Below are positions 5,646 to 5,760 of a stretch of DNA of 64,000 nucleotides, one piece after another (position 1 is the first letter of the stretch; every line of letters begins with the position of its first letter). The notes beneath the pieces are model-generated. The model searched no databases. It saw only the letters and a list, made by a program, of their open reading frames with translations, and had not been told where the DNA came from. Source of the DNA: Acidobacteriota bacterium (lineage in GTDB: Bacteria; Acidobacteriota; Terriglobia; Bryobacterales; Bryobacteraceae). A program made the translations under genes and the position numbers. Where the stretch lies: contig JACQZR010000145.1 in the NCBI GenBank assembly GCA_016213775.1, positions 1-64,000 on the forward strand, written 5' to 3'.

Positions 5646-5668
5646 CCCCTACAGCCAATCTGTAGGAG
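5646..5668 (-). terminator. Expression-platform hairpin of the fluoride riboswitch
   Basis: On the minus strand CTCCTACAG (5668-5660) pairs with CTGTAGGGG (5654-5646) around a five-base loop, followed by TTT. The 5' arm uses the same bases as the 3' strand of the aptamer pseudoknot (5670-5665), so ligand-stabilised pseudoknot and terminator should exclude each other. This gives an ON switch. The U-tract is short, so termination strength is uncertain. Confidence 0.65.
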
Positions 5669-5723
5669 TCATTGGCAACGCCTGTTACTGGGGGGTTGCG
5701 GTTAAAGCGGACTCCACCGCTTT
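5660..5723 (-). promoter_or_regulatory. Fluoride riboswitch aptamer (crcB RNA motif)
   Basis: Read on the minus strand, stem 1 is AAAGCG (5723-5718) with CGCTTT (5709-5704). Its loop carries GGAGTC (5715-5710), which pairs with GACTCC (5670-5665) to make the diagnostic pseudoknot. Stem 2 is GCAAC (5699-5695) with GTTGC (5679-5675). The flanking conserved bases fit the motif: AACC before stem 2, CAAT between stem 2 and the pseudoknot strand, and TAC plus AG after it. Aligned by eye with the Thermotoga petrophila and Pseudomonas syringae aptamers, all elements are in the same order and spacing, except for a longer stem-2 loop of 15 bases. It lies 69 bases upstream of the crcB start and begins at about the predicted transcription start. 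Confidence 0.87.
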
Positions 5724-5731
5724 CAAGCTTC

Positions 5732-5760
5732 AGAATAGCGCACTACAGGAATTGGATCAA
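5732..5760 (-). promoter_or_regulatory. Sigma70-like promoter of the crcB operon
   Basis: The minus strand has TTGATC (5760-5755), a 17-base spacer and TATTCT (5737-5732). Transcription would begin near 5725, two bases before the first base of the fluoride aptamer. The match of position with the aptamer strengthens an otherwise moderate consensus fit. Confidence 0.6.

Follow-up and report, generated by a model that had tools for sequence, protein, structure and literature searches.

A candidate fluoride riboswitch with a covarying G-C pair at positions 6 and 38 ahead of crcB and dynamin-like genes in an Acidobacteriota bacterium

The crcB leader in the window, as we call the whole 64-kb stretch of Acidobacteriota DNA analysed here, is best explained as a fluoride riboswitch that would switch on an operon of crcB and dynamin-like genes through an exchange between a pseudoknot and a hairpin, and whose aptamer would belong to a sub-group with G-C at positions 6 and 38 (probability of roughly 0.87). 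This explanation is preferred because the leader matches the Rfam model RF01734, crcB is the next gene, the pseudoknot and the hairpin share a strand, and positions 6 and 38 covary in a manner that preserves the pair. By model and layout the stretch classifies as a real fluoride riboswitch, and as such it is ordinary. The variation at 6-38, which had not been spotted when the switch was originally predicted from the letters alone, is the more interesting feature of the aptamer.

Results

Structure of the aptamer

The original prediction had proposed a fluoride riboswitch and named a covariance-model search as a way to check it. When the whole 64-kb window was run through Rfam cmscan, RF01734 matched 5730-5656 on the minus strand with an E-value of 1.7e-6. 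The match scores 36.6 bits, which puts it only 2.6 bits above the gathering threshold of 34. No further RF01734 match at or above the gathering score was found within the 64-kb window. A reading of the sequence placed P1, P2 and the six-pair pseudoknot at the same positions as originally predicted (Table 1), the pseudoknot being of the H-type (5715-5710 with 5670-5665). The P2 loop, which had been described as unusually long, does contain 15 bases; loops of at least this length are present in 23 of the 259 aptamers with a readable P2, and the median is 4, so that the loop is unusual but has other examples. The predicted fold of the 99-nt leader has a z-score of -2.24, with 2 of 200 shuffled sequences being equally stable.

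Table 1. Positions of the riboswitch elements and neighbouring genes in the window.
Feature	Position	Strand	Basis
Weak promoter-like site TTGATC-17-TATTCT (5760-5755, 5737-5732)	5732..5760	-	8/12 positions match
Fluoride riboswitch aptamer RF01734	5656..5730	-	cmscan
P1 (5723-5718/5709-5704) and loop	5704..5723	-	sequence
Position 6: G, consensus A	5717	-	model alignment
Pseudoknot 5' strand, positions 8-13	5710..5715	-	sequence
P2 (5699-5695/5679-5675), five pairs, 15-base loop 5694-5680	5675..5699	-	sequence, fold
Position 38: C, consensus U; would form a reverse Watson-Crick pair with 6	5674	-	alignment, covariation
Position 39: A, consensus G	5673	-	model alignment
A40, unchanged letter of the linchpin A40-U48	5672	-	sequence
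Pseudoknot 3' strand, positions 42-47, common to the competing hairpin	5665..5670	-	sequence
U48, unchanged letter of the linchpin A40-U48	5664	-	sequence
Terminator-like hairpin competing with the pseudoknot, followed by TTT (5645-5643)	5643..5670	-	fold, sequence
crcB/Fluc fluoride exporter gene, TTG start, GGAGG 5603-5599	5217..5591	-	profiles
Dynamin-like GTPase 1 gene, 549 aa, 3 bases after crcB	3564..5213	-	PF00350 76.9 bits
Inorganic pyrophosphatase gene (ppa), split over two frames	3052..3560	-	profile
Dynamin-like GTPase 2 gene, likely start 3050, open frame from 3293	1092..3050	-	PF00350 84.5 bits
Divergent enolase gene, GTG start likely, in-frame TAG 6634-6636	5827..7113	+	profile

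The solved aptamers of T. petrophila and B. cereus have A-U at 6-38. These two RF01734 examples share P1, P2, the pseudoknot and the letters U7, G8, A40 and U48 with the window's aptamer; in both, crcB likewise lies downstream and the 3' pseudoknot strand is contested by a hairpin. The window's switch differs from both in its G-C at 6-38, its A39 in place of G39, its 15-base P2 loop and its weak U-tract. In the core, G replaces the consensus A immediately before UGGAGU, while C replaces U and A replaces G immediately before AUGACUCC (positions 6, 38 and 39 in T. petrophila numbering). The A6/U38 identity of the solved structure is thus absent from the window's aptamer, which has a G and a C that are able to pair instead. 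Both sides of what would be one tertiary pair adjoining the fluoride site are therefore altered together.

In the solved aptamer, A6-U38 is described as a reversed Watson-Crick pair and A40-U48 as a reversed Hoogsteen pair (PMC11586693), the latter being the linchpin pair that favours antitermination (PMC11077080, PMC8752731). In B. cereus numbering, the former pair is A10-U38, and fluoride-dependent changes in reactivity have been read as its formation (PMC10687018). The G-C and U-A combinations at 6-38 would probably retain the reverse Watson-Crick geometry. An isolated reverse Watson-Crick G-C pair is reported to be rather unstable and to be stabilised by a divalent metal at the G, by modification or by further hydrogen bonds (PMC3902895), and the fluoride site contains three Mg2+ ions (PMC11586693, PMC10687018). 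This three-Mg2+ site could help a G-C pair at 6-38. The Levitt pair 15-48 of tRNA, which alternates between G-C and A-U, offers a parallel: it too stands alone, joins distant positions in reverse Watson-Crick geometry and can be G-C, as proposed for the window's aptamer. Unlike the Levitt pair, 6-38 also occurs as U-A.

Covariation of positions 6 and 38

The pair was read by model coordinate in 109 of the 115 RF01734 matches from 150 genomes of the window's family. It is G-C in 40 of these, A-U in 33, U-A in 31, A-C in 3, and G-U and C-C in one each, while U7, G8, A40, U41 and U48 are kept in 108 of the 109 irrespective of the pair at 6-38. The six weakest matches, outside the 109, comprise two with G-C, one of which is altered at position 7, and four without a proper or well-fitting core. 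If the aptamer were decaying, the core changes would be damage and fluoride would no longer be bound, which would agree with the low score against RF01734 and with the broken enolase and pyrophosphatase genes in the same cluster, unbroken copies of which are present elsewhere in the genome. However, 35 of the 109 matches from the family have G6, C38 and A39 together, and this combination recurs in several phyla. In addition, the window's aptamer keeps U7, G8, A40, U41 and U48, and the reading frames of crcB and of the two dynamin genes remain open and match their profiles well. Given that the same core letters recur elsewhere, decay is considered very unlikely.

To describe the pair more broadly, we used a descriptor that requires the letters of P1 and of most of the pseudoknot to pair and fixes U7, G8, A40, U41 and U48, but ignores positions 6, 38 and 39. 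It yielded 401 distinct aptamers in 445 loci, of which 263 remained after removing loci from a pattern scan (see below) and 240, here called trait-blind, after also removing genomes reached via variant loci. The descriptor is strict, retaining 76 distinct aptamers from the window's family, and the aptamers of all other groups come from only part of the matches listed. Since nothing was asked of positions 6 and 38, the descriptor cannot have created their covariation. The 240 trait-blind aptamers have A-U in 167 cases, G-C in 43, U-A in 26, A-C in 2, and G-U and C-C in one each, meaning that a standard pair is possible in 237 and not in three (A-C, C-C). Neither A6 nor U38 is present in 70 of the 240, and the A6/U38 identity is therefore not family-defining.

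The mutual information between 6 and 38 is 1.07 bits, which is the highest among the column pairs read in the 240 aptamers, slightly above that of the P1 pair 4-15 (1.05 bits). The minimum-energy fold of the window's leader draws a seven-pair P1 that includes G6-C13, and G6 might accordingly do nothing more than extend P1, with the change at 38 being unrelated. However, the mutual information between 6 and 13 is only 0.05 bits. In the set of 263, G6 is accompanied by U13 (27 of 56) about as often as by C13 (29 of 56), and 24 of the 26 aptamers with U6 have U13, which gives no standard pair. A lengthening of P1 by G6-C13 was rejected on this covariation as highly unlikely.

The pair types are unevenly distributed among the trait-blind aptamers. 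The window's family (76 aptamers) has G-C in 33, U-A in 21, A-U in 18 and other combinations in 4, and the other Acidobacteriota (79 aptamers) have A-U in 69 and G-C and U-A in 5 each. All aptamers from the phylum of Anoxybacillus (57 of 57) and the phylum of Mesorhizobium (18 of 18) are of the A-U type, and the ten from the phylum of Minicystis are split evenly between A-U and G-C (5 each).

The pattern scan of genome contigs prescribed certain letters of P1 and the pseudoknot and excluded A from position 6 and U from position 38, thereby permitting nine combinations. It gave at least 118 stretches that hold at least 125 aptamers, and among the matches listed 103 of 125 are G-C, 21 are U-A and one is C-C. 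The other six permitted combinations are absent from these 125 listed aptamers, among which independence of the two positions would predict about 17 G-A and about 17 U-C. C6-G38 is found in none of the 401 aptamers, nor among the pattern-scan matches listed, although it was permitted there, which argues that the exchange at 6-38 is not free. By record title, the G-C form belongs among the matches listed to Acidobacteriota (39), Myxococcota (35), Pseudomonadota (8) and eight other named phyla, each with between 1 and 3 (Bacillota has 3). Metagenome bins may carry wrong names, and one "Arcobacter" record is probably a misnamed bin. As the G-C form is present in Pseudomonadota and Bacillota records, A-U is not universal there. 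The U-A form is confined to Acidobacteriota among the pattern-scan matches listed. Position 39 differs with the pair type: in the set of 263, A39 accompanies G-C in 43 of 55 aptamers, A-U in 37 of 178 and U-A in 4 of 26.

Taken as read from the sequences, the window's aptamer appears to be a member of a large natural sub-group with G-C at 6-38, with U-A in others, and the swap from A-U to G-C seems to recur in many bacteria, nearly always on both sides together. Covariation has been reported in P1, the pseudoknot and P3 (PMC13273304). In the text of PMC7657543, the categories given for RF01734 are "helix extended" and "new pseudoknot", and non-Watson-Crick covariation is not among them; PMC6794908 mentions junction contacts of the fluoride riboswitch in a passage that leaves them unnamed. 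No report of covariation at 6-38 was found in the literature searched, and an earlier remark in the 2012 crystal paper or the discovery paper is possible.

The same genome contains a second fluoride switch (contig C165, positions 2925-2863 on the minus strand), which also has G6, C38 and A39 and is located before a Na+/H+ exchanger gene. It scores 30.9, under the RF01734 cut-off. The RF01734 model penalises the G-C and U-A forms at 6-38.

Changes of the pair on protein trees

The counts given above overstate the number of events, because aptamers are inherited along with their genes. A nearest-neighbour comparison of the 401 aptamers gave 12 close pairs, nine of which had changed on both sides and were still paired and three of which had changed on one side. 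These are too few for event counts, and trees of the downstream proteins were used instead; they are quick trees, and their rows include variant-selected loci. The pair type changed at least six times among 46 Na+/H+ exchangers, at least five times among 64 CrcB proteins, at least twice among 23 CLC proteins and at least ten times among 65 dynamin rows. The exchanger rows were regrouped by direct similarity (48 of 64 match the exchanger, 46 of them long enough), the CLC rows are those of the first grouping of downstream genes (22 of the 23 match CLC directly), and the dynamin rows are 65 of the 83 in the dynamin group. Independent pairs on well-supported branches number five for the Na+/H+ exchanger, two for crcB, one for CLC and five for dynamin. 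Position 38 tracks position 6 in nearly all of these, and none changes in the opposite sense. Six pairs are needed for a sign test to reach 0.05, a number that no single tree attains.

Promoter and expression platform

In the window, a G+C-rich hairpin overlaps the 3' strand of the pseudoknot. As originally predicted, the strand is shared with nine pairs (5668-5660 with 5654-5646) that are followed by TTT at 5645-5643, and this is seen in the sequence itself; if two T are allowed to pair, the hairpin has eleven pairs and a predicted energy of -15.3 kcal/mol. The tail TTTCCCTTCC contains 4 T among the 8 bases 3' of the ten-pair stem. Of the mutually exclusive terminator design that had been proposed, the shared strand thus holds, whereas the U-tract is weak and a consensus scan at its thresholds found neither a terminator nor a promoter in the window's leader. 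Similarly, the proposed promoter exists as a site (Table 1) but is not better than chance, an equally good one being present in 18% of 2000 shuffled stretches. The interpretation of the leader as a fluoride switch is nevertheless supported, because the RF01734 match exceeds the cut-off, crcB is next to it, and the pseudoknot and the hairpin share a strand.

The fold and the shared strand are consistent with a fluoride ON switch. Without fluoride, the 3' strand of the pseudoknot would be drawn into the hairpin of 9-11 bp, and transcription would most likely end before crcB. Fluoride and Mg2+ would lock the pseudoknot, and the transcript would then continue into the crcB operon. Fluoride binding, the direction of switching, termination and a single operon transcript are what we infer for the window from this arrangement.

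Of the 76 family aptamers, 41 have a strong hairpin that covers the 3' pseudoknot strand, compared with 10 of 76 when the downstream sequence is shuffled. In the phylum of Anoxybacillus the corresponding numbers are 56 of 58 and 9 of 57, and in the phylum of Mesorhizobium a strong hairpin is found in 26 of 29. At least 4 T in the next 8 bases follow the strong hairpin in 11 of 41 family aptamers, in 54 of 56 from the phylum of Anoxybacillus and in 5 of 26 from the phylum of Mesorhizobium. The poor U-tract of the window's switch, and the rarity of T-rich tails in the family compared with the phylum of Anoxybacillus, would suit a switch that acts by Rho, pausing or translation rather than by intrinsic termination, with the hairpin being a mere OFF state of the RNA. 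In some relatives of the A-U type (L038, L042 and L044), the ribosome site of a dynamin gene lies in the 3' arm of the hairpin, right next to the ATG, which points to translational control there, and these three are probably translational fluoride switches. In contrast, the hairpin in the window leaves the ribosome site of crcB (5603-5599) free, the site being located 40 bases further down. Control at such another level is unlikely for the window, though it deserves more weight than the alternatives for the aptamer itself, and because this ribosome site is not part of the hairpin, intrinsic termination is the likelier mechanism.

Genes around the switch

The crcB product matches PF02537 with 99 bits (cut-off 32.9) and TIGR00494 with 98.8 bits (cut-off 80.45), and seven bases separate the GGAGG from its TTG start. 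Both dynamin-like proteins exceed the Dynamin_N cut-off of 27 bits (76.9 and 84.5). The pyrophosphatase gene between them leaves profile positions 34-40 unmatched, and an unbroken copy is located on contig C194; two stop-free frames of the enolase family are located on contig C50 of the same genome. The operon under the switch would run from crcB through dynamin-like GTPase 1 and the broken pyrophosphatase gene to dynamin-like GTPase 2. In several relatives, enolase-like sequence is found near fluoride switches. The gene layouts of the relatives rest on queries with dynamin-like GTPase 1, one enolase piece (enoC), crcB, ppa and nhaP.

Including the pattern-scan loci, the genes after aptamers of the G-C type are crcB (11), Na+/H+ exchanger (30), CLC (9) and dynamin (20). 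Changes in a riboswitch core sometimes mark a new ligand, and the 6-38 variants might on that account sense something other than fluoride. However, the G-C and A-U types precede the same kinds of gene, which are those of the fluoride class, and the letters U7, G8, A40, U41 and U48 are kept in 108 of the 109 family matches with any pair at 6-38. Because the downstream genes are of the same kinds, an altered ligand is extremely unlikely.

The nearest PDB relatives of dynamin-like GTPase 1 by sequence are 5owv (a GTP-binding protein entry), 2j68 (a bacterial dynamin-like protein) and 6j72 (IniA). The similarity to the bacterial dynamin-like proteins 5owv/5oxf, 2j68 and 6j72 is one of sequence; 5owv is made up of two distinct GTP-binding chains, and two genes of this kind also lie close together in the window. 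What sets the proteins of the window apart is that their genes follow a fluoride riboswitch and accompany crcB. Among 385 first downstream frames, direct similarity identifies 77 as dynamin-like, and 54 of the 77 come from outside the pattern-scan set. In the first grouping, such frames come from the window's family and other Acidobacteriota, with a few from the phylum of Anoxybacillus (4), that of Minicystis (3) and that of Mesorhizobium (1).

Dynamin_N at E <= 1e-12 gave 77 matches in 45 of the 150 family genomes. Of these matches, 67 are located within 10 kb of an RF01734 match, 58 of them on its strand and no more than 6 kb downstream of it, and the remaining ten have no riboswitch match within 10 kb. 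An RF01734 match is present in 39 of the 45 genomes with Dynamin_N compared with 63 of all 150 (Fisher 2e-13, a test that ignores relatedness), and six of the 45 have no riboswitch match at all. No association of fluoride riboswitches with dynamins was found in the literature searched, in which the papers on dynamin and crcB concern, by their titles, animal cell biology. In the Mesorhizobium composti genome, 13 riboswitch matches, 11 of them over the cut-off, are concentrated within 27 kb of contig C3 (19052-45584), a cluster that looks like a fluoride-resistance island.

Discussion

It is possible, although at present doubtful, that membrane-acting and often paired dynamin-like GTPases belong to the fluoride regulon in Acidobacteriota and in certain members of other phyla, as a defence not listed before, and that the 6-38 pair, of which the switch of each gene in a genome would keep its own version, serves as a natural dial of fluoride sensitivity. 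In this scheme, the window's family would mostly use U-A for one kind of dynamin, A-U for the other and G-C for the Na+/H+ exchanger. If the dynamin link were confirmed, membrane maintenance would join fluoride resistance.

The variation at 6-38 amounts to a natural compensatory experiment, in which A-U, G-C and U-A are found and C-G is not, and it lends sequence support to a pair known from the crystal structure. The natural variants are ready-made aptamers for testing the effect of 6-38 on affinity and switching speed. That they are under-scored, the second copy in this genome falling below the cut-off, is a reason to rebuild the Rfam model RF01734. What the window adds is a candidate example of a widespread variant with a rewritten tertiary pair at the ligand site, an example that would also head a fluoride operon containing dynamin genes.
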